Positions 2,828 through 23,808 of a DNA stretch of 64,000 nt are shown piece after piece (position 1 is the stretch's first letter; every line of letters begins with the position of its first letter). A model generated the notes under the pieces. That model ran no database searches. It saw only the letters and a list, made by a program, of their open reading frames with translations, and had not been told where the DNA came from. The stretch comes from Clostridiales bacterium. GTDB lineage: Bacteria > Bacillota > Clostridia > Lachnospirales > Lachnospiraceae. The stretch covers positions 124,001 to 188,000 of the forward strand of contig JAMPHY010000003.1 in NCBI GenBank assembly GCA_023663185.1. Direction: 5' to 3'. Position numbers and translations under genes: made by a program.

Positions 2828-3727
2828 TTATATTTTTAACACCGCAATACTACAACCATCTCCAATAGGAGTCTTAGGCAAAATAAAGTTCATTTCCTTC
2901 TCAAAGTCTGCAACTGCCATCTTCACACCGGGTAACTCTGGATGGAAGTAGTCATGCAATAAAATTACACCGCCCGTCTCCATTTTATCCCAGAAGAATC
3001 TTAGACCATCTAACTGCGGTTGGTATAAATCCATATCTAAATTGACAAATGCAAATTTATCTTCTATATTACGAACACTTTCAGGAAATCTGCCCTGCAA
3101 TATTTTTACTTTTTCCGGATAAAGCATTCTTGTACTCACTGTATCAATCATTAATTCAGGAGTTTCTGCTTTAAAAGTAGAATATGTAAATGTGCCAGCT
3201 CTAAATGCATCAAATTTTTCTCTTTCATCCATGACTTCCTGATCCACAAAACCTTCAAAGGTATCACACAAATATAATGTTCTATCTTTCCAATATTTAT
3301 TAATAAACATTGCCGTTTCACCGTAATACACACCACATTCTGCTATGTTACCTTTAAGTTTGCACTCTCTTGTATAATCTGCAAAACATTTAATCCAATT
3401 TTTTCTGACTACATCAAATTCTAAAAAAGCATCCTGATACTCTGTACTCCTCTGCATAACCACAATTTTTTCATTCAAAATACCTAGTTCTATCAGTTGT
3501 GATTCCACAGCCCTAAATTGATTACCCTTTCTTATACAAATAAAAATTTTTTCAAAATCATATTCCTGTAATTGACATGGAGCAATTACTTTAATACCAT
3601 CTATTTGCCCCCCCCATTTTGTGTCATCATTATCGCACACAGCTATAATTGTCACTCCATAATACTTCTGTAATCCTCTCGCTAAAATTCTTCCATAATG
3701 TCCCGCTCCAAATACAACAGCTTTCAT
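2828..3727 (-). CDS. TylF/macrocin-O-methyltransferase family protein with N-terminal Rossmann module
   Basis: A 299-residue fusion. Residues 1-95 form a small Rossmann-like domain beginning MKAVVFGAGHYGR. Residues 105-299 are a class I SAM methyltransferase of the TylF type: AECGVYYGETA at 129-139 (SAM loop), LCDTFEGF near 153-160, FVNLDMDLYQP, and a late GGVILLHDYFHPE segment carrying the acidic metal ligands of this family. TylF-type enzymes O-methylate sugar hydroxyls. Its place among glycosyltransferases suggests that it methylates a sugar of the encoded glycan. The same domain order recurs in the gene at 6283-7326, so the module was probably duplicated inside the cluster. Confidence 0.82.
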   Translation of the reverse strand: MKAVVFGAGHYGRILARGLQKYYGVTIIAVCDNDDTKWGGQIDGIKVIAPCQLQEYDFEKIFICIRKGNQFRAVESQLIELGILNEKIVVMQRSTEYQDAFLEFDVVRKNWIKCFADYTRECKLKGNIAECGVYYGETAMFINKYWKDRTLYLCDTFEGFVDQEVMDEREKFDAFRAGTFTYSTFKAETPELMIDTVSTRMLYPEKVKILQGRFPESVRNIEDKFAFVNLDMDLYQPQLDGLRFFWDKMETGGVILLHDYFHPELPGVKMAVADFEKEMNFILPKTPIGDGCSIAVLKI

Positions 3728-3814
3728 ACTCTTTATATTCTCCTACCTTTCATAGTAATTTATTTACAAGCTTCTCTGATTTTCTCATACATGTATTCAC
3801 TTCTACACATGATT

Positions 3815-5410
3815 CTAAATTTCTTTCTCTATCTTCCTTGCAATCTTTCGATTCACCAAATCATTCAAATGAGATGGAACAGCACCGTATTCATATTCCT
3901 TATCTGTAAAATAAAGTTTGTCCATCGTGCAATCTACAACTTTGATTTGCGGAAAATTTTCTTCAATAAATTGATAGCAGTCCTCTAACATTTGATTTAT
4001 TCGTAATATTTCTTCTGCATTTTTAAATAAAACCTGACTATATATATCTCCCACCTTTGTACTAAGCATGTTTCTAACTACTACTACATTACATAATGGA
4101 AATTTTTCTTGCATACACTCCATAAATTTAAAAAAATTCTTTTTCCAAAGTTTCTCATACTCCTTACTATCTCTTTTAATAATTCTCGCCCCTGCAATAG
4201 AAATATCAGTCTCATCAAGCGCATCACTTTTTGTTATATAGCCTCCTGCCATCTGAATAATATCGAATCTTTCTTCAATAAAATCAATAAAAACATACTC
4301 AGGATTTATATCTTTAACAATATTCCAAAATGAAGATTCAATATCTCTTTGAACCATAATTTCACGATACCTATTTTTATGTATGCACTTTAATCCTTTG
4401 ACTGGATTCATAAGGCTAATTATACTAGAAAAATTAAATCTGCCATACGGATTATGCAACACATTCATATATCCGAGAATACGATTTAAATTATATCCGC
4501 CCAACGTTATATAGGAGAAATTTAATGTCCCCGGAAATTTTTCTTCTATATAAGCATAATACTTTTCAGTCAGTTGAAAAAATTCTTCTCTATCTCTGCG
4601 ATAAAATAAAGCTGCTGACAAATCAGACAATTTTCTCTTGACTATCTCCTGTAGTATTTGTTTATATTTATCATATAATCCACATATCTTAAAATTTTCC
4701 AGTAAGTTATCAAAAGCTAGCAACCCTACCGCTTTTTCATCTCCATTATTAATACGAGGCTGTTCCGAAAGAGACTTGGGTCGAAATCTCCGATAATAAT
4801 ATAATCCTTCATGTACATTTGCAATTCCACCACTCAATGCAATTAATAGCGGATACACTGCTCTAGCTTCACTATGACAATTCGGAAATGTAACTCCATA
4901 ATCCACAAAAAGAGTTTTCTTTATCATACATTTCCAAATTGCAGTAAACCCATACTTCATATGATCTTCTAACGAATATTCAAGTCCCATATTCCCAGAG
5001 CATATATGATATGTCTTTTCTCCGGTATGATTATCATACTTATACACGTCACATTCTGCCATATTAACTTTTCTCTCAATTATTGTTGTATATAATTTTT
5101 CAAGATATGTACAATCTACCCAATCATCTGAATCAATAAATACTAAGTATTCTCCTCTTGCGTTATTTATACCACAATTTCTTGCCAAAGATGGTCCTTC
5201 ATTTTCTTTTGTTATAATTCTTATTCTGCTGTCTTTCTCTGCCCACTCTTCACATTTTTTCTCAGAGCCATCTGTAGAACCATCATTTATCAATATTACT
5301 TCAAATTCAGAAAAGGTCTGACCTACCACAGATTCCATACATTGATCAATCCATTCATACACATTATATACTGGAATGATAATGCTAATTGGGATTATGT
5401 TTTTTCTCAT
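3815..5410 (-). CDS. Family 2 glycosyltransferase fused to a DUF6270-like domain
   Basis: A 531-residue protein. The N-terminal 230 residues are a GT-A family 2 transferase: ISIIIPVYNVYEWID, VILINDGSTDGS and the metal motif VFIDSDDWVD. The C-terminal ~180 residues (YVFIDFIEERFDII, then a stretch with a basic KRD segment and a late DKLYFTDKEYEYG segment) resemble DUF6270, an SGNH-hydrolase-like domain often attached to polysaccharide enzymes. That second assignment is from memory of the family pattern and is less certain. It could couple sugar transfer with acyl transfer or removal. The start follows the stop of the next gene by four bases, which indicates translational coupling. Confidence 0.78.
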   Translation of the reverse strand: MRKNIIPISIIIPVYNVYEWIDQCMESVVGQTFSEFEVILINDGSTDGSEKKCEEWAEKDSRIRIITKENEGPSLARNCGINNARGEYLVFIDSDDWVDCTYLEKLYTTIIERKVNMAECDVYKYDNHTGEKTYHICSGNMGLEYSLEDHMKYGFTAIWKCMIKKTLFVDYGVTFPNCHSEARAVYPLLIALSGGIANVHEGLYYYRRFRPKSLSEQPRINNGDEKAVGLLAFDNLLENFKICGLYDKYKQILQEIVKRKLSDLSAALFYRRDREEFFQLTEKYYAYIEEKFPGTLNFSYITLGGYNLNRILGYMNVLHNPYGRFNFSSIISLMNPVKGLKCIHKNRYREIMVQRDIESSFWNIVKDINPEYVFIDFIEERFDIIQMAGGYITKSDALDETDISIAGARIIKRDSKEYEKLWKKNFFKFMECMQEKFPLCNVVVVRNMLSTKVGDIYSQVLFKNAEEILRINQMLEDCYQFIEENFPQIKVVDCTMDKLYFTDKEYEYGAVPSHLNDLVNRKIARKIEKEI

Positions 5411-13567: not shown

Positions 13568-14992
13568 TTATTTCAGTTTAACATTGACTGTCGCTGTTTT
13601 TGTTTCTCCACCTACTGTTACATAAGTAATTGTAGCCTCTCTAGCAGTTTCGCTTGGAAATTTCGTTTGATAGTTTGTTACATACTTTGTAGGTAATGTA
13701 ATTAAACCATTTTCGTCAGTAGCAGCAGCCCATGAACTTCCTAATGCATTATATCCATCATATACAGTTCCGCCATAGTCCATTTCCACTTTTTTTATAG
13801 ATGCAAGTGCATCATTACCTGTACCAACGGTATAACTAATAGTTCCAATTACAGTGCCTGTCGTAAAAGAAGGGGCAACTGTAACTGGTTTTCTCAATCT
13901 AACATCAACTGTAGCTGTTTTTTCCGCTCCACCTTCTGTAGTATAATAAACTGTAGCTTCCCTAGTCATGTCATTGGGAAATTTTCCTTGATAGTTTGAC
14001 ACATATTTCGCTGGTAATGTAATTAAACCATTTTCATCTTTAGCTGCAGGCCATGTACTTCCTAATGCATTATATCCATCATATACAGCTCCGCCATAGT
14101 CCATCTCTATTTTTGTTATAGAAGCAAGTGCATCATTACCCGTACCCTTCCTATACTTAATCGTACCAACTTCAGCACCTGTCTTAAATGTAGGATTCGG
14201 ATTTACATACAAAGCGCCAGTACCTGTTACTGCTGTTGCTCCACTGGGTGCATTCTCATTACTATAGACAGCCGTAATTCTGATGCCTTTTGTAAGTTTG
14301 GTCCAGTCTGTATTTGTATTCATGGTTCCGCTAAGCGTAAAGGCTGTGATTCCTTTATTGCTATCTGCCAACGCACTAAGAGTAAAATTGTCCTTTACAT
14401 CATTAGTTGCTGTTGCGTCTAAATCAATTGCACCAGTATACTTAGCTTTTTCAAGCACAAAATCAACCTCATTTTCACCTGCTACCAGAGTCTGTGAATT
14501 AGCATCCTCTGCCAGAGTCATTGTTACATTAGCAAGATCTGCACCCGTAGTGGTCAAATCTATATCTGCCGGAGTTGCTCCAACCTGTATTGTGCTATCT
14601 TTTGCCGGAACTAATTTCAGGTTAACTACATAATCATCCGCTGCTGCATTTGTTACGTCAGCCGGATCTGTTGCAAACGTAATCTTGTCTTCATTTAAAT
14701 CTTCTACCTTAAGAGTAACCGTAATGATTTTATCTTGCGTACTCTTGTTGATGATACCATAATTCTTGGATACAATCTGGTCATGAACGCCAGTTCCATT
14801 CTTGGTTACTTCCAGACCGCTCGGATTGAAAGCCACTACATAATTAGTCGGAACTACTACATTAGTAATATCATATGCATAAATCGGTGCATCTACAGAT
14901 ACCTCCGGTTCAGCCGCCATGCTTGTCATTGACATTCCTAATGCCATTGATGCACTTAATGTAAGCGCTAAGAATTTCTTTAAATTTTTCAT
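13568..14992 (-). CDS. Secreted protein with two tandem ~93-residue repeats
   Basis: The start is the ATG at 14992, preceded by AAGGAGG with 7 bases spacing; an upstream ATG at 15010 lacks this. The 474-residue product starts with a signal peptide (MKNLKKFLALTLSASMALG, cleavage after TSMAA). Residues ~35-270 form a domain (ITNVVVPTNYVVAFNPSGL, GIINKST, LSGTMNTNTDW) clearly shared with the protein at 18368-19459. It is followed by two tandem repeats of about 93 residues, each with TGNDALASI, VEMDYGG or IEMDYGG, VYDGYNALGS, DENGLITLP and KTATV. No sortase motif or membrane anchor is present. It is 17 bases after the anchored protein gene and probably co-transcribed with it. It is probably a cell-surface or matrix protein of unknown function. 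Confidence 0.8.
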   Translation of the reverse strand: MKNLKKFLALTLSASMALGMSMTSMAAEPEVSVDAPIYAYDITNVVVPTNYVVAFNPSGLEVTKNGTGVHDQIVSKNYGIINKSTQDKIITVTLKVEDLNEDKITFATDPADVTNAAADDYVVNLKLVPAKDSTIQVGATPADIDLTTTGADLANVTMTLAEDANSQTLVAGENEVDFVLEKAKYTGAIDLDATATNDVKDNFTLSALADSNKGITAFTLSGTMNTNTDWTKLTKGIRITAVYSNENAPSGATAVTGTGALYVNPNPTFKTGAEVGTIKYRKGTGNDALASITKIEMDYGGAVYDGYNALGSTWPAAKDENGLITLPAKYVSNYQGKFPNDMTREATVYYTTEGGAEKTATVDVRLRKPVTVAPSFTTGTVIGTISYTVGTGNDALASIKKVEMDYGGTVYDGYNALGSSWAAATDENGLITLPTKYVTNYQTKFPSETAREATITYVTVGGETKTATVNVKLK

Positions 14993-15027
14993 TTTTTTGC
15001 CTCCTTGCATAAAAATTTCATTAATAA

Positions 15028-15913: not shown

Positions 15914-17341
15914 TTAGTTTACCACGGCCATCATTCCTGCTAAATCCTCACGCAAATCACGTCTGCCGCCTGAAAGCGCAACCGCCTTTTTCATCTTATC
16001 AATTCCGCCCTGTTTATCTCCCAGTTTATAAATCGCAATCGCATATCCGCTCAAAGCATCCGCATTGCCTTCGTTAATTTCCAACGCCTTCTCATTGTCA
16101 GCCATACAGATTTCATAGTTACCGCACATATATTCTGCGTAGGCTTTAACAACATACGCTTTTTCATTATCCGGCTCAAGCTCTGTGACGCGGTTTAAAA
16201 TTATTGCAGCTTCTTGATAAATTCCCAACTTAATAAGACTTTCAGCCTTTTCAAGCAGTCCTTCGGCGTCTGCTATTTCCTGCTGCTTTTTCTTCATTTC
16301 TTTCAATTTCAGGTTATATGCGCAGTATTGGTTTTCGGAGTTTATGCTGCCATTCATGGTAAGCCGGGTATTAGGACATCCGCCCAGGCATTTGCTGCCA
16401 TAGACGCAGCTTTTACAATCCCCGCCCAAGTCTTCTTTTTTGAAGTTCCTGCGCCATGCAAAAGCATCGTCGTTTTCCCAAATATCCTTAAGCGAACTCT
16501 CCCGTATGGACTCCTTTTCAATAAATTCGTCCTCACGGATAGATGTGCAGCCGAGGATTCTACCGTCATGTAAGATTCCAAATCCCCTGATTCCTGCATT
16601 GCAGCCATCCCACAAAGATATCATATCCGTTTCATAAGATATTCTTTTGATTTCCAATTCTTTTTGGGTATAATAACCTATACAATCTGCGGGATATATC
16701 TTTATTCTGCCCTCTTTAGCCGTTTCATAGCAGAAATCTATAATATCCGTAATTCTTTCAGGTGCAAGAAGCCAGTCCGGCTTTTCCTTCAGATTTCCCA
16801 TTGGAAGACCTATCTGCACCTGCCAAGTCTTTACACCCATGCCGATTAGTTCTTCCTTTAGCTCGCCAAGAATATCTATGTTCTTATTTGTGATGGTTGT
16901 AACGGCTCCGCTTTTAATACCAAGCTCATCCATATATTGAAAGCATTTTTGAGCATTGTCAAAAGCGCCTTCTCTGCGAATCTCATCGTGGATCTCCTTG
17001 ATTCCGTCAATGCTGACTGCAAGTGTTGCAATCCCGCTTTCTTTTAGCTTTTCCGCCATATTCCCGTCAAGCAGCAGTCCATTGGTAATCATGTTCACGG
17101 CAACGCCTTGCGTGGACAGCCTTTTTACAAGCTTAGTAATATCTTTTCTGGTAAGCGGCTCACCTCCGGATAATGTAACCCATCTAAGCCCTAACCCTGC
17201 AATCTGGTCACATAAATCCAATGCTTCTTCCGTAGTCAGTTCGCCCTCTAAAGGCTCTGCGCAGGAAGAACCACAGTGTCCACACCGCATATTGCAGCCC
17301 ATAGTCACTTCCCATACACAGGTAATTGGCTGATATTTCAT
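15914..17341 (-). CDS. Radical SAM/SPASM peptide maturase with C-terminal TPR region
   Basis: The start is the ATG at 17341 (MKYQPITCVWEV) with AAGGAGG 6 bases upstream. The 475-residue protein has the radical SAM cluster motif CNMRCGHC with Cys at 16, 20 and 23, the SAM-binding VTLSGGEPL, and ATLAVSIDGIKE. A SPASM-type auxiliary-cluster region follows, with Cys at CNAGIRGFGILHDGRILGC and then CKSCVYGSKCLGGCP and NQYCAYN. Residues ~350-475 are tetratricopeptide-like helices (LEPDNEKAYVVKAYAEYM, LEINEGNADALSGYAIAIY). SPASM enzymes typically modify ribosomal peptides. The gene directly upstream, 23 bases away, encodes a protein ending in six CX3D repeats, the likely substrate. No exporter or protease gene adjoins the pair. 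Confidence 0.88.
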   Translation of the reverse strand: MKYQPITCVWEVTMGCNMRCGHCGSSCAEPLEGELTTEEALDLCDQIAGLGLRWVTLSGGEPLTRKDITKLVKRLSTQGVAVNMITNGLLLDGNMAEKLKESGIATLAVSIDGIKEIHDEIRREGAFDNAQKCFQYMDELGIKSGAVTTITNKNIDILGELKEELIGMGVKTWQVQIGLPMGNLKEKPDWLLAPERITDIIDFCYETAKEGRIKIYPADCIGYYTQKELEIKRISYETDMISLWDGCNAGIRGFGILHDGRILGCTSIREDEFIEKESIRESSLKDIWENDDAFAWRRNFKKEDLGGDCKSCVYGSKCLGGCPNTRLTMNGSINSENQYCAYNLKLKEMKKKQQEIADAEGLLEKAESLIKLGIYQEAAIILNRVTELEPDNEKAYVVKAYAEYMCGNYEICMADNEKALEINEGNADALSGYAIAIYKLGDKQGGIDKMKKAVALSGGRRDLREDLAGMMAVVN

Positions 17342-17364
17342 AAGCTTCCTCCTTTTAGGCAGCA

Positions 17365-18060
17365 TTAAAACGGAGCTGCATACATACGTGTTAAATTTGC
17401 ATTGTCCATGCATGGATAGCCATATTTAAACGCTGCATCATTGACGCTGCAAGGATAACCGTACTTAAACGCTGCATCATTGACGCTGCAAGGATAACCA
17501 TACTTGAACGCTGCATCATTGACTCCACAAGGATAACCGTACTTAAGCGCTGCATCATTGACCCCACAAGGATAACCGTACTTAAGCGCTGCATCATTGA
17601 CTCCACAAGGATAACCGTATTTAAGCGCTGCATCATTGACGCTGCAAGGCAAGCCATAGTCCTGACAAGAATTCTGCACATCAATGCCCGAACGTACAAG
17701 TCCATACGGCATCGCAATGTTTGCCTCATTCTCACTATAAGAAGCAAATTCTTCAGAGTCACTCTTAACAATCTTTACCTTCGCCGTAAAACTATCTTTT
17801 CCTGCCTCATTTACATCTGACCACTTATTCAATGTAAATAAAATATCCGCCTCTTTCTCATCCGTAGATAATGCTCCCAAATAAAATCTCTGCAAAGATG
17901 TTGAAGTATATCTGCCGCCTACACGAACATTTTCTGCTCCCATAACAATAATCTGCGGTGGAAGCTTTGAAATACACCATCCATAATTGCTAGAACCTAA
18001 ATTTGACAAAAGTTCTACAACAAAAACTTTTCCTTCCAATACAAGATACTCTTTCTGCAT
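17365..18060 (-). CDS. Candidate RiPP precursor: chagasin-like N-domain plus six CX3D repeats
   Basis: The start is the ATG at 18060, behind GGAGAAGG. The 231-residue protein has no signal peptide. Residues ~1-110 look like a chagasin/I42 protease-inhibitor-type beta domain (NLGSSNYGWCIS, VRVGGRYTSTSLQRFYLGAL, LNKWSDVNE corresponding to the family's three loops); this is a pattern judgement. After a linker, residues 139-216 are six exact-length repeats of 13 residues, C-G/S-VNDAA-L/F-KYGYP, followed by CMDNANLTRMYAAPF. Each repeat has Cys and Asp four apart (CX3D), the arrangement cross-linked as Cys-Asp thioethers in freyrasin by PapB. It is coupled to the SPASM enzyme downstream. A TATAAT lies at 18118-18123. 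Confidence 0.72.
   Translation of the reverse strand: MQKEYLVLEGKVFVVELLSNLGSSNYGWCISKLPPQIIVMGAENVRVGGRYTSTSLQRFYLGALSTDEKEADILFTLNKWSDVNEAGKDSFTAKVKIVKSDSEEFASYSENEANIAMPYGLVRSGIDVQNSCQDYGLPCSVNDAALKYGYPCGVNDAALKYGYPCGVNDAALKYGYPCGVNDAAFKYGYPCSVNDAAFKYGYPCSVNDAAFKYGYPCMDNANLTRMYAAPF
17413..17646 (-). repeat. Six tandem 39-bp coding repeats
   Basis: Six in-frame 39-bp units encode the 13-residue CX3D repeat. Units differ at a few positions (Gly or Ser after Cys, Leu or Phe before Lys), so they are not fresh identical duplications. The neighbouring reading frames also stay open through the array and give spurious long ORFs. Confidence 0.95.
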
Positions 18061-18367: not shown

Positions 18368-19459
18368 TCAATCTACCCTAATCATCGCCCCTGTTCCTTC
18401 AATAATTTCTTCATCGCCAGCCGCCGTTTTATAAGTGTAAACTACAGAAAGCTTAATTCCTCCTGACAATTTCTCCCACTCAGCATTTGAATTCATAACT
18501 CCGCTGAATGTATATGCGCTTACTCCTTTTCCGTCCGGTGAAAGCTCTACTAACTCATTATCATCATTATAAACAGCCCCGGAAAGTTTGAACGCGATAC
18601 TGTTAAGCCCATCATGCAGCGGTACTGCTTGTTCCTTCGCGCCGGTCATGTCAACCTTTCGTAACGCTTCTCCTGTAATCTCGCTGTCAGCAGGTTCACC
18701 GTCTATTAATATCTGTTCTTCATTTGCAGGAACAACTTCAAGATATATTGCATATACATTTTCTTCTGCTTCTGCAGCTTCCTGCGCTGAATCAACAAAG
18801 ACTAATTCGCCTCCGTTACGGTCCTCTACAGTCAATGAAACCTTCACTATCTGATCCGTAGAGCTCTTATTCACAATGCCATATGTCCCTGATATAACCT
18901 GTTCTGTCGATATGGTATTGTTTCCTATCTTAATTGACAAACCATAGGGATTCAATGCTAAAGTATAAGATGTCGGCACTACAACATTAATGATTTCAGG
19001 TATATCCTGTCCTTCATCTATTTTTGTAACTTCCGCATTCTCTGCATCTATATCATTGTCGGCAGTATCACCGGAAATATCATTACCGGAAACCGTATTT
19101 ACTTCATCGTTTTTTTCATCTGTTTCATCATTTTCGATATTATTACTTTCTTTTTCTTCATCCTCTTCCTTCTTAGGCTCTTCCGTTTCATTATCAGTTT
19201 TGCTTCCTGTCGTGCCTGCGGAGTCTGTTTCACCTGTTATATCTTTTTCACTATTTGTACTTTCAGCACTTATGCTTTCACTGCTTACATCTGAATTATC
19301 ATCATTCACATTTTCATTTTCTGACACATTATGTAAACTGCTATCATTTTCTTCTGCAAATACTGATATTGAAAGGTTTGCAGCCAACACGCACAATATG
19401 ATTGCTATTGCTATGCCTTTTATAAGAAATGATTTTCTGCTTCTTATTATTTTACGCAT
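18368..19459 (-). CDS. Secreted protein with acidic Ser/Glu-rich linker, paralogue of the repeat protein
   Basis: A 363-residue protein with GGAGG before the ATG. A positively charged start and hydrophobic stretch (residues ~14-33, ending SISVFAEE) form a signal peptide. Residues ~37-155 are low-complexity Asp/Glu/Ser/Asn, likely an extended spacer. Residues ~160-363 match the globular domain of the protein at 13568-14992: INVVVPTSYTLALNPYGL, GTYGIVNKSSTDQIV, VSAYTFSGVMNSNAEWEKL, GTGAMIRVD. No sortase motif is visible. It has its own hairpin terminator. It is probably a cell-surface protein; the shared domain is not one that I can name. Confidence 0.78.
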   Translation of the reverse strand: MRKIIRSRKSFLIKGIAIAIILCVLAANLSISVFAEENDSSLHNVSENENVNDDNSDVSSESISAESTNSEKDITGETDSAGTTGSKTDNETEEPKKEEDEEKESNNIENDETDEKNDEVNTVSGNDISGDTADNDIDAENAEVTKIDEGQDIPEIINVVVPTSYTLALNPYGLSIKIGNNTISTEQVISGTYGIVNKSSTDQIVKVSLTVEDRNGGELVFVDSAQEAAEAEENVYAIYLEVVPANEEQILIDGEPADSEITGEALRKVDMTGAKEQAVPLHDGLNSIAFKLSGAVYNDDNELVELSPDGKGVSAYTFSGVMNSNAEWEKLSGGIKLSVVYTYKTAAGDEEIIEGTGAMIRVD

Positions 19460-20399: not shown

Positions 20400-22085
20400 T
20401 TACCCAATCAACACCCTTTTTCCTTCAAACGCAAAACCATATTTCTTTATCCGTTCTGTCGCAATACCTTTTTCTAACAAGGTCTCCTCATACTTTTTCT
20501 CTTCTATCTGGTCAAGAGCTGCCTGTACAGTATCCTCAAGTGTCTTTTCATCTTCTGGATCATGTACTTTAAATTCCATAATCACTGCGTTATCTTTTTC
20601 ATGATAGGGCTCCAGCATAACATCATATCTTCCGAATCCGCTTTCCCTATTCGATGTAACAACGTATCTATCTGCAAGATCTACTATCAGCCCCAGCACG
20701 AATCCATGATAAAATCGTTCCGGTTCCGCATCTCTTGAAGGTTGACGTCCTGTATCAAAATAACTAAATGTATCCAAAGCAACTTTATTCATGTAAGCAT
20801 TCATTGCCTTTTTGTTGTCCTGAAGCAATGCCTTTACGAAATCATTATAATTTGATGTATATTCGGCAAACCAGTCTTCTATCATCTGCTCAAACATCAG
20901 ACGGACCTCTTTATTCGTTAGTTTCAGGTCATACTCCGTTCTGCCGCTTTTCTCATTGAACTCAAACTTTTCCACCCGCAGATATCCGCTTGCCAGAAGC
21001 AGACTCCAGACAGCGCTGATTTTATTGTCTAGCTGACTGAAAACAATCTGTTCGTCAATCACCGTATGGAATACTCTATCCTGTAATAAGTCTTCCATAG
21101 TCATCTTAATCGTTGGACTTCCTTCTTTTATTAATTTCCCCACAAGGCTGTTGGAACTTGTATTCGCCCAATATGCTGCCAATTTCCCTGTATCAAGAAA
21201 ATTAATAATTGACCACGGATTGTAGATATCGCGCCACTTTCCAAACAGAAAACCATCATACCAATTCTTCACATCTGTCTTTCTGTCACCCATACCATAT
21301 TCCTCTAACGCATTAAACACTTCTTCCTCCGTAAAGCCAAAAGATGTGCCGTATTCGTCAGAAGTTGTCGTCACTACTTTAAGATTGTTTAAATCAGAAA
21401 AAATAGATTCCTTACTCACCCTTGTAATTCCTGTCATAATAGCGCGTTCCAACCATGGATTAGTTTTAAATGCAGAATTGAACAGGCTTCTGGTAAATGC
21501 CGTCAATTCCTGCCAGTAGCCATTCACATAAGCTTCTTGCATAGGGGTGTCGTATTCATCTAAAAGGATGATGACTTTTTTGCCGTAATAGCGATATAAA
21601 TATTCAGACAACTGATTTAATGCCAATGTTGCATCCACATCTTCCATATCAATAGTCTTCCTTCGGAAAGAATCCTTTTCCTGTTCCGTCAGGCAATCCT
21701 CCTGAAGCAGAAATGTATATCTAGCATACTCACTGGCAATTAGCTGGCATATTTTCCTGCGCGTAACATAATAGTCTGCTTCTTTCACCCCTGCAAAAGA
21801 CAGACTGATAACCGGATATGTCCCTTGCAACTCTCGGTATTTCTCTTCCTGCCAGATGTACAGGTTCTTAAATAAATCCCCTTGCCCTGCATACCCTATG
21901 GAAAAAAACTGCTCTGTCATACTCATGGTCAGCGTCTTGCCAAATCGTCTGGGTCTGGTTATCAGTGTCACTTCATCTCCGCTTTCCCACCATTCTTTCA
22001 AGAAAACAGTCTTATCGATATAAAAGTAATCGTTCTCAATAATCTTACTAAAATTCTGTATCCCGATTCCTATTGTTCTTGCCAT
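20400..22085 (-). CDS. AAA-ATPase-like / PD-(D/E)XK nuclease family protein
   Basis: A 561-residue protein with the typical start of the AAA-ATPase-like family (IENDYFYIDKTVFLKEW) and Walker A-like RPRRFGKTLTMSM, then VIILLDEYDTPMQEAY (Walker B). The C-terminal segment has a PD-(D/E)XK-like nuclease core (GFGRYDVMLEPYHEKDNAVIMEFKV). Proteins of this kind occur in many copies in Clostridia and Bacteroidetes genomes; their role is not established, with defence or mobile-element association proposed. It stands alone between the sigma-28-like promoter and pilB. Confidence 0.88.
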   Translation of the reverse strand: MARTIGIGIQNFSKIIENDYFYIDKTVFLKEWWESGDEVTLITRPRRFGKTLTMSMTEQFFSIGYAGQGDLFKNLYIWQEEKYRELQGTYPVISLSFAGVKEADYYVTRRKICQLIASEYARYTFLLQEDCLTEQEKDSFRRKTIDMEDVDATLALNQLSEYLYRYYGKKVIILLDEYDTPMQEAYVNGYWQELTAFTRSLFNSAFKTNPWLERAIMTGITRVSKESIFSDLNNLKVVTTTSDEYGTSFGFTEEEVFNALEEYGMGDRKTDVKNWYDGFLFGKWRDIYNPWSIINFLDTGKLAAYWANTSSNSLVGKLIKEGSPTIKMTMEDLLQDRVFHTVIDEQIVFSQLDNKISAVWSLLLASGYLRVEKFEFNEKSGRTEYDLKLTNKEVRLMFEQMIEDWFAEYTSNYNDFVKALLQDNKKAMNAYMNKVALDTFSYFDTGRQPSRDAEPERFYHGFVLGLIVDLADRYVVTSNRESGFGRYDVMLEPYHEKDNAVIMEFKVHDPEDEKTLEDTVQAALDQIEEKKYEETLLEKGIATERIKKYGFAFEGKRVLIG

Positions 22086-22116: not shown

Positions 22117-23808
22117 TTACGAATCAAACGATACCTTAATCATTTCATTTACAGACGTAATTCCCGCCAATACATAGTCGGTTGCGCACATACGCAGGGT
22201 GTGCATGCCTTCAACAAGCGCTTTTTCCTTGATATCCTCTGCGCTTCCGTTCTTACTGATAATGCTTCTTAAAGGCTGCGTCATCTCCATAATCTCGTAC
22301 ACACCAATTCTGCCTTTATAGCCTGTGCCGTCACATCTTGGACAGCCGCCGGGGGCGTATATCGTGATATCTTCGTCGGGCTTCCTGTTTAGTAGTTCAA
22401 GTTCATCTGCATCGGCTTTTTTTGCCTTCTTGCACTCCGGGCACAAACGCCGTACCAGACGCTGTGCAATAACTCCGATAGTGGAATCTGCAATCAAATA
22501 GGGTTCAATACCCATATCTTCAAGACGGGTAATCGTACTTGCCGCCGAGTTAGTATGCAGGGTAGATACAACCAAGTGTCCGGTTATGGAAGCCTGAACC
22601 GCAATACTTGCCGTTTCCTGATCACGAATCTCACCAATCATAATTATATCAGGGTCCTGACGCAGAATGGAGCGCAGCGCGCTGGCAAATGTCAGGTTAG
22701 CTTTAGGATTAACCTGAACCTGATTAATTCCGTCGATATTTGCTTCTACAGGGTCCTCTACCGTGATTATATTAACATCTTCTCTATTTAATTCGCTAAG
22801 CGCAGTATAAAGCGTCGTAGACTTACCGCTTCCGGTAGGTCCCGTTACCAGAAGGATACCATGCGGGTTCTGTAAAATATGGTCGAATTTTTTCATATCC
22901 GCAGGTCCCAATCCTAACTGGCTCTTCTCTTTGGTAAGCGCGTTCTTGGAAGTAAGACGCATAACTACTTTTTCGCCGTATACTGTAGGAAGGATTGATA
23001 CACGGATATCAAATTCCTGTCTGTCTACAACTTGGGTAATACGTCCGTCCTGCGGCTTTCTTTTCTCCGCAATATCCATTCCGCCGATAATCTTAATTCT
23101 TGCTACCATTGCCGGAAGAAGTCTGATACTGTAAGTTGCCTTTTCATACAAAGCGCCGTCTATTCTGTAACGGATACGTACCTGACGCTCCATCGGCTCG
23201 ATATGTATATCCGAAGCTCTTTGTCTGACCGCCTGCTCAATCATGCCTTTAACCAACTGTACAATCGGAGAATTGTTGACGTCTTCGCTGTACATGTCTT
23301 CTTGTTCCACCATTTGACTTTCTTTTTCTTTGGCGTACTCTTCCAGTGCGGAATTAACTTCGGTATTTCCATAATATTTATCCAGTGCAAGCATGATGCT
23401 TCGGGTAGTTGAAACCACCGGCTCCACTTGAAGATTCGTAATAATATTTACATCGTCAATCGCCGCCATATCCATTGGATCCGCCATTGCCACACGAAGT
23501 ATATTCATGTTTTCAGGCGAATACTCAAACGGAATCATTTTATGCTTCTTCAATACATTGACGGGAATAAGGGAAATTACGTTTTCCTCAATCGTAACGT
23601 TTTGAAGGTCAATAGTACTAAGATTAAGCTGGCTGCTCAAAGCGCGCACGATATTTTCTTCCGTCACAAGACCTTCATCTACAAGTGTCTCTCCAAGCTT
23701 ACGCCCGCTGCCCTTCTGTAACTGCAGTCCCTTCTCTAACTGCTCTTCCGATATAACACCACTGTTTACGAGAACATCTCCAAGACGAAGTTTTTTCCTG
23801 CTCTCCAT
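22117..23808 (-). CDS. pilB: Type IV pilus assembly ATPase PilB
   Basis: A 563-residue GspE/PilB-type ATPase. Residues 1-150 are the MshEN-like N-domain (LRLGDVLVNSGVISEEQLEKG, LGETLVDEGLVTEENI). The core has Walker A GPTGSGKSTTLY, an Asp box, Walker B DIIMIGEIRD and a His box (GHLVVSTLHTN). A late CPECKK / CPRCDGTG zinc site identifies an extension ATPase rather than PilT. It drives pilin polymerisation at the inner face of the membrane. PilC, PilM-Q and pilin genes are not in the window. It lies in a series with dprA, comM and pilT on one strand. Confidence 0.95.
   Translation of the reverse strand: MESRKKLRLGDVLVNSGVISEEQLEKGLQLQKGSGRKLGETLVDEGLVTEENIVRALSSQLNLSTIDLQNVTIEENVISLIPVNVLKKHKMIPFEYSPENMNILRVAMADPMDMAAIDDVNIITNLQVEPVVSTTRSIMLALDKYYGNTEVNSALEEYAKEKESQMVEQEDMYSEDVNNSPIVQLVKGMIEQAVRQRASDIHIEPMERQVRIRYRIDGALYEKATYSIRLLPAMVARIKIIGGMDIAEKRKPQDGRITQVVDRQEFDIRVSILPTVYGEKVVMRLTSKNALTKEKSQLGLGPADMKKFDHILQNPHGILLVTGPTGSGKSTTLYTALSELNREDVNIITVEDPVEANIDGINQVQVNPKANLTFASALRSILRQDPDIIMIGEIRDQETASIAVQASITGHLVVSTLHTNSAASTITRLEDMGIEPYLIADSTIGVIAQRLVRRLCPECKKAKKADADELELLNRKPDEDITIYAPGGCPRCDGTGYKGRIGVYEIMEMTQPLRSIISKNGSAEDIKEKALVEGMHTLRMCATDYVLAGITSVNEMIKVSFDS

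Follow-up and report, generated by a model that had tools for sequence, protein, structure and literature searches.

A radical SAM/SPASM/TPR enzyme and a chagasin-like protein with a repeated Tyr-Gly tail: a candidate splicease-like gene pair in Lachnospiraceae

In a bacterium of a gut-type family, a two-gene pair on the minus strand encodes a radical SAM/SPASM enzyme and, in front of it, a protein ending in repeated X-Tyr-Gly (XYG) units. The pair recurs in other genomes, its XYG motif is conserved, and the enzyme stands near maturases that are associated with XYG peptides. We consider it likely from these comparisons that the pair is splicease-like, the enzyme acting on the XYG sites in the tail of its partner. 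The stretch of DNA analysed, called the window here, has a length of 64,000 nucleotides and contains the following features of the pair:

17365..18060, minus strand: substrate protein of 231 aa with chagasin-like N-domain and XYG-array tail (ATG at 18060, stop ending at 17365)
17728..18060, minus strand: N-domain of the substrate, residues 1-111 (alignment and profile comparison)
17365..17727, minus strand: tail of the substrate with eight YG (PYG, DYG and six KYG) and a final MYA (motif counts)
17400..17649, minus strand: 39-bp tandem array coding for YGYPC[GS]VNDAA[LF]K units (TRF)
15914..17341, minus strand: radical SAM/SPASM/TPR enzyme of 475 aa, counted from ATG 17341 (ORF open to 17413)
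17273..17296, minus strand: radical SAM cluster motif CNMRCGHC (CX3CX2C), enzyme residues 16-23 (translation; Pfam Radical_SAM, 3.5e-25)
16406..16603, minus strand: SPASM domain (PF13186, 6.4e-7)
15989..16267, minus strand: TPR-like C-terminal tail of the enzyme (Pfam and PDB sequence matches)

A preliminary description of this DNA had reported six 13-residue CX3D repeats at the end of a 231-residue protein and a SPASM radical SAM enzyme 23 bases downstream. The repeats are present (ORF translation, TRF) and both open reading frames lie where they had been placed, the gap of 23 bases referring to an enzyme start at ATG 17341. This ATG, preceded by AAAGGAGG, is the likely start and yields a protein of 475 aa; the longest open reading frame of the enzyme has 499 aa and begins within the upstream substrate gene. 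There is no further small gene in the pair, and a consensus scan found no terminator 3' of the enzyme gene. Exporter and protease genes had been described as absent. In agreement with this, Pfam detected neither a peptidase nor an ABC-type exporter in any of the 10 ORFs listed around the pair at 10-26 kb, 4 of which have no Pfam family above its cut-off. The ten include a type II/IV secretion ATPase (PF00437) at 22117-23808 on the minus strand, the sole secretion-type gene noticed near the pair. An AAA-ATPase-like and PDDEXK_9 protein is encoded at 20400-22085, also on the minus strand. Two related secreted-looking proteins with the motif NVVVPT..NP.GL (18368-19459 and 13568-15010, both minus strand) flank the pair with one further ORF between, and a relative occurs near the pair of locus L031, too.

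The Radical_SAM and SPASM domains of the enzyme exceed the Pfam cut-offs. The TPR tail, already assigned in the preliminary description, is recognizable from many Pfam matches, each of them below the cut-off, and from designed TPR proteins in the PDB which match it by sequence (8bu0_A, 1e-11; the top row reaches 4.6e-18, but without a single passing stretch). The best NCBIfam model for the enzyme is the nif11-class maturase 3, TIGR04103 (4.6e-63; 213.3 bits, under the cut-off of 725), which we take to equal IPR026482, the PlpX family. The second is the GDL-motif maturase TIGR03913 (8.6e-60; 202 bits, under the cut-off of 592). Members of these two families stand beside XYG or XYA peptides, but the window enzyme scores well below both equivalog cut-offs, and inspection of the Nostoc member of TIGR04103 (420 aa) showed no TPR tail. 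A tree was calculated from 36 of the enzymes fetched, with SCIFF maturases as the only outgroup, so that members of another SPASM family might prove closer. The five SCIFF maturases, each of which exceeds the TIGR03974 cut-off, separated at 100/100, and the window enzyme grouped with the enzymes of L046, L018, L029 and L044 within 21 rows (87/92); L028 formed a long branch. Six phage records contain distant radical SAM matches with an identity of at most 29%.

The tail of the window substrate is built from six 13-aa units C[SG]VNDAA[LF]KYGYP and thereby contains six CX3D. There are seven YGxPC in the array and eight YG in the whole tail (residues 119, 135, 148, 161, 174, 187, 200 and 213), and the last motif is MYAAPF. 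CX3D never occurred six times in 2000 shuffles of this tail, nor did YG or Y[GA]xP occur eight times, a significance for which, with any unit motif, tandem duplication alone suffices. The codons for Tyr, Gly, Cys and Lys vary synonymously among the six units. Those for Val-Asn-Asp-Ala-Ala are identical in 6 of 6 units, so that the array of the window alone does not tell which residue is selected. A Pfam match of the substrate to OTU1_UBXL (6.7e-7) was rejected as a repeat artefact, no stretch passing by itself, and matches in the genomes G046, G147, G283 and G295 were dropped; they cover the repeat part only and lie within other repeat proteins (by look).

The enzyme search gave 13 loci and, in additional genomes, further ones, resulting in 18 distinct loci including the window with an enzyme identity of at least 52.9% (L072, cut by the locus end, has 73% over 275 residues); the duplicates L006/L015/L038, L005/L016, L007/L017, L031/L087 and L042/L088 were counted once. 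A protein with the same N-domain is encoded beside the enzyme in 16 of the 18 loci, 15 times upstream and once downstream (L042). The remaining two, L040 and L041, exhibit a short upstream XYG peptide and a downstream ABC transporter gene, which was Pfam-checked in L040 and assigned by likeness in L041. Thus, the association of substrate and enzyme proposed in the preliminary description holds beyond the window. Substrate homologues in genomes without the enzyme, named there as the observation that would speak against it, were not found: every genome with the N-domain carries the enzyme as well (4 of 4 among 299 genomes searched, 2 of 2 among 344). The pair is rare, being present in 4 of 77 genomes of the genus. 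In L036, L037, L039 and L043 a LytTR response regulator and a GHKL histidine kinase are encoded divergently upstream of the substrate (BLAST; domains checked in L037 only, 2902-4955). This Agr-like arrangement may regulate the substrate-enzyme pair.

Thirteen homologous tails were used for motif counts (L042 was included despite its X run, and L033, whose ORF is interrupted by a run of N, was not; L072 and L089 came to light afterwards and stand outside the 13, and whole-protein counts of L089 were not used). These tails contain 102 Y[GA]xP motifs, with Lys as X in 81. Y[GA]xP is enriched over shuffles in 13 of 13 tails, at most 2 of 2000 shuffles reaching the observed number. In L042 (7512-8231) the repeats read IYAYP and are devoid of Cys, and L089 (881-1489) has KYGYPY, KYGYPF and LYAYPP alongside KYGYPC. 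The XYAYP units of L042 and L089 point to a possible tolerance of the enzyme for Ala in the position following Tyr. In some units of L032 and L089, Cys gives way to Tyr or Phe. Judging by these tails, the recurrent element is XYGxP with frequent Cys, not CX3D.

XYG and XYA peptides were also detected beside other related enzymes. Among 11 loci (L018, L019, L029, L040, L041, L044, L046-L050), the enzyme adjoins an ORF containing XYG or XYA in nine, and L019 and L050 are without a credible one; the count is suggestive, not clean, since several of the short ORFs were spotted through their YG. The enzyme of L044 follows an NHLP peptide (TIGR03793) with TAYG, a second NHLP-like ORF having neither YG nor YA, and upstream of the L046 enzyme is a peptide whose last residues are VMYGTGVRM. 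L029 contains a peptide with AYAVVP and a GG leader (by look) with an adjoining C39 peptidase gene, L018 a divergent 87-aa ORF with six YG adjoining a C39 peptidase-ABC gene. The DUF1843 peptides of two GDL loci carry XYG or XYA near the N-terminus in 5 of 6 cases and MYM in the sixth. No Cys is present in 7 of the 9 XYG/XYA peptides of these relatives (L046 read from an inner Met). A leader-like motif, FVKxxE[IL], was noticed in the short relatives of L040, L041 and L046. An enzyme encoded on a Nostoc plasmid reaches 853 bits with TIGR04103, over the cut-off of 725, and its gene directly follows that of a Nif11 peptide (TIGR03798) ending in LYGLPPELF; two further RiPP precursors of this locus are without YG.

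Ten more distant enzymes, with 33-38% identity to the window enzyme, stand outside the 11-locus count. Six of them (L022, L024, L025, L026, L027 and L030) adjoin proteins with a VYAGP motif in two to six YAGP-type copies each, e.g. L022:2502-3287 on the minus strand. [IV]YAPP proteins adjoin two others (L021, L023), and none were seen in L020 and L028. By their motifs, the VYAGP and [IV]YAPP proteins are perhaps another repeated XYA substrate family.

The N-domain of the substrate had been described as chagasin-like. This stands as a remote profile match; a Pfam match over the cut-off does not support it, as the window N-domain has none to PF09394 (chagasin I42), and in 1 of 14 relatives I42 appears at E 0.14, below the cut-off. 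Comparison by hhalign of 15 N-domains with 13 I42 domains (alignment A2, for which 13 of 16 I42 loci were taken; the weak L069 and L070, and L083, were left out) gave 72.6% with a score of 31.7. The controls were lower, 150 column shuffles yielding at most 20.3 (0 of 150 as good) and two reversed profiles 10.8 and 11.4. In this comparison the I42 loop NPTTGYxW is aligned to GSSNYGWC of the N-domain, and Y26-G27-W28 is invariant in the 15 aligned N-domain sequences. Because of the profile score above the controls and the loop alignment, the N-domain is probably a remote relative of chagasin. Chagasin I42 inhibitors have an immunoglobulin-like fold and inhibit C1 peptidases. Unlike them, the window N-domain is joined to an XYG array, and the substrate has no signal peptide (by inspection). 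No PDB relative of the N-domain was found by sequence, and the literature searched contained no paper combining chagasin and radical SAM.

According to excerpts of PMC10533398, PMC11002830 and PMC10373908, PlpX acts together with PlpY at XYG, where the removal of tyramine (C8H9NO) gives rise to a ketoamide, one splicease precursor can be spliced several times, splice tags such as RPLYGLPI are in use, and the ketoamide products inhibit proteases. The excerpts of PMC11002830 assign PlpX to IPR026482. Splicing is reported as widespread, with 939 predicted systems, in the excerpts of PMC10533398. The tag table given there lists many XYG contexts which are not spliced, so that XYG alone is no proof of splicing.

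Transferred to the window pair, the enzyme would cut tyramine out of the substrate backbone at up to eight repeated XYG sites; relatives have up to 15 YG. The chagasin-like N-domain would take the place of the leader and stay on the product, a protein whose tail would carry Lys ketoamides in line, ..AALK(CO)GYPC... Both this chemistry and the number of sites used are what we infer from motifs and family relationship. The TPR tail of the enzyme might replace the partner protein PlpY. A search of the window and the loci with a single query, a 71-aa Nostoc ORF taken as PlpY-like by position, revealed no PlpY-like ORF (best E 0.80), but would miss a diverged partner. A ketoamide tail could serve as multivalent inhibitor of, or bait for, a protease cleaving after Lys, and we put forward such a protease-directed role only tentatively. 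The bacterium's own genome (94.8% complete) yielded no peptidase of the C11 or C1 family; the target would thus be outside the cell or of another family. The complete picture of a protein-scale inhibitor, combining a chagasin-like domain, an expandable Lys alpha-ketoamide tail, a PlpY-free TPR splicease and Cys-masked ketones, is rather unlikely to be right in all its parts.

Several observations count against or are not covered by the splicease-like explanation. With 213 of the 725 bits that TIGR04103 requires, the enzyme stays far below that cut-off, which counts against it. So do the negative PlpY search, the lack of C11 and C1 targets in the own genome and the absence of an exporter beside the pair. 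A protein-sized product without an adjoining dedicated exporter, as considered in the preliminary description, is supported; the Cys-Asp cross-linked tail that went with it is not. Finally, in the main clade Cys follows Y[GA]xP in 73 of the 102 motifs, and this frequent Cys at +4 of Tyr needs more than splicing as an explanation.

A rival reading is another radical modification at YGYPC, e.g. a Tyr-Cys or Tyr-Lys cross-link, with XYG as the site but the tyramine kept. Y[GA] precedes the tail Cys by four residues in 84 of 102 cases, which is tighter than XYG alone needs. Moreover, SPASM enzymes form many kinds of bonds (excerpts of PMC8326336). However, XYG or XYA is kept without Cys in the unit in L017, L042, L018 and L047, and the annotated family nearest to the enzyme is taken to be the one (IPR026482) in which excerpts of PMC11002830 place PlpX. 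We regard a cross-link at YGYPC as unlikely.

The preliminary description had proposed a candidate ranthipeptide with Cys-Asp thioethers. In a ranthipeptide-like reading, each Cys would be joined through its thiol to the Asp beta carbon, or the Glu gamma carbon, at +4, and the tail would hold as many as six thioether rings. The window pair shares a radical SAM/SPASM enzyme and six CX3D in the substrate with ranthipeptides such as freyrasin (PapA/PapB) and SCIFF. Excerpts of PMC9413430 describe CSANDA, which resembles CSVNDA of the window, as minimal motif of PapA, and a loose acceptance of Cys-Xn-Asp/Glu, including Cys-X3-Glu, by PapB. In the 13 tails, 45 of 102 Cys have Asp at +4 and 65 of 102 have Asp or Glu. 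Nevertheless, CX3D is unevenly kept in the relatives: it lies above shuffles in 7 of 13 tails (reached by at most 7 of 2000) and not clearly above them in L032, L037, L038, L017, L039 and L042, where 86 to 2000 of 2000 shuffles reach it. The tail of L017 has four YGYP, no YGxPC and just one CX3D/CX3E, and L042 has neither CX3D nor CX3E. The Cys-Asp spacing is lost in several units of L038 and L072. L072 has 15 YG, and 7 of its 14 Cys begin a CX3D; its CGDTP and CGEPV units interrupt the spacing. Related enzymes adjoin Cys-free XYG peptides, and the window substrate lacks a short leader. The enzyme itself falls outside the family by score and tree. It reaches 68.9 bits of the 340 required by the PapB model, and TIGR03974 is absent from its best 25 NCBIfam models. 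The same genome has a SCIFF (ranthipeptide) maturase of its own on contig 16, away from the pair, with 778 bits for TIGR03974 and 282 for the PapB model, and this type separates in the tree. Enzymes over the PapB cut-off for inclusion in the tree were found in none of 149 genomes. The sulfur cross-link reading is thus less likely than tyramine splicing, and we give thioether rings very little credence. Tyramine splicing followed by a reversible Cys addition to the ketoamide, masking it until a target or a redox change is met, would make use of the YGYPC thiol, which in 73 of 102 motifs is at +4 of the spliced Tyr, but with Cys missing from units of L017 and L042 this is highly improbable.

Tyramine splicing remains the preferred reading, and its closest known counterpart is the PlpX/PlpY system of Pleurocapsa spliceotides. 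Judging from the excerpts cited above, both share a radical SAM/SPASM enzyme beside an XYG substrate with several possible sites, and a YGLP context is shared with the published tags (excerpts of PMC10533398). In contrast to PlpX/PlpY, the window substrate has a chagasin-like domain instead of a Nif11/NHLP leader and a Lys-Tyr-Gly-Tyr-Pro-Cys array, the enzyme has a TPR tail, and neither a PlpY-like ORF nor an adjoining ABC exporter or protease was found. The chemistry would hence be of a known kind, and the variant lies in the chagasin-like carrier, the expandable KYG array and the TPR tail, no PlpY-like ORF having been found. No paper on such a pair is among the literature matches listed; the main survey, Scott et al. 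2022, is outside the scope of that search, and since splicing is reported as widespread, the family of the pair may already be in its list.

The analysis shifts the finding from thioether peptides to backbone splicing, two readings which differ by 135 Da versus 2 Da per site. If splicing holds true, a splicease without separate PlpY would be of use in protein engineering. A spliced tail would line up reactive groups of a type that is known for blocking proteases. Lachnospiraceae would then possess proteins in which an inhibitor-like scaffold bears a long series of beta-amino acid ketoamides, a multivalent warhead of natural origin that differs in length from strain to strain.
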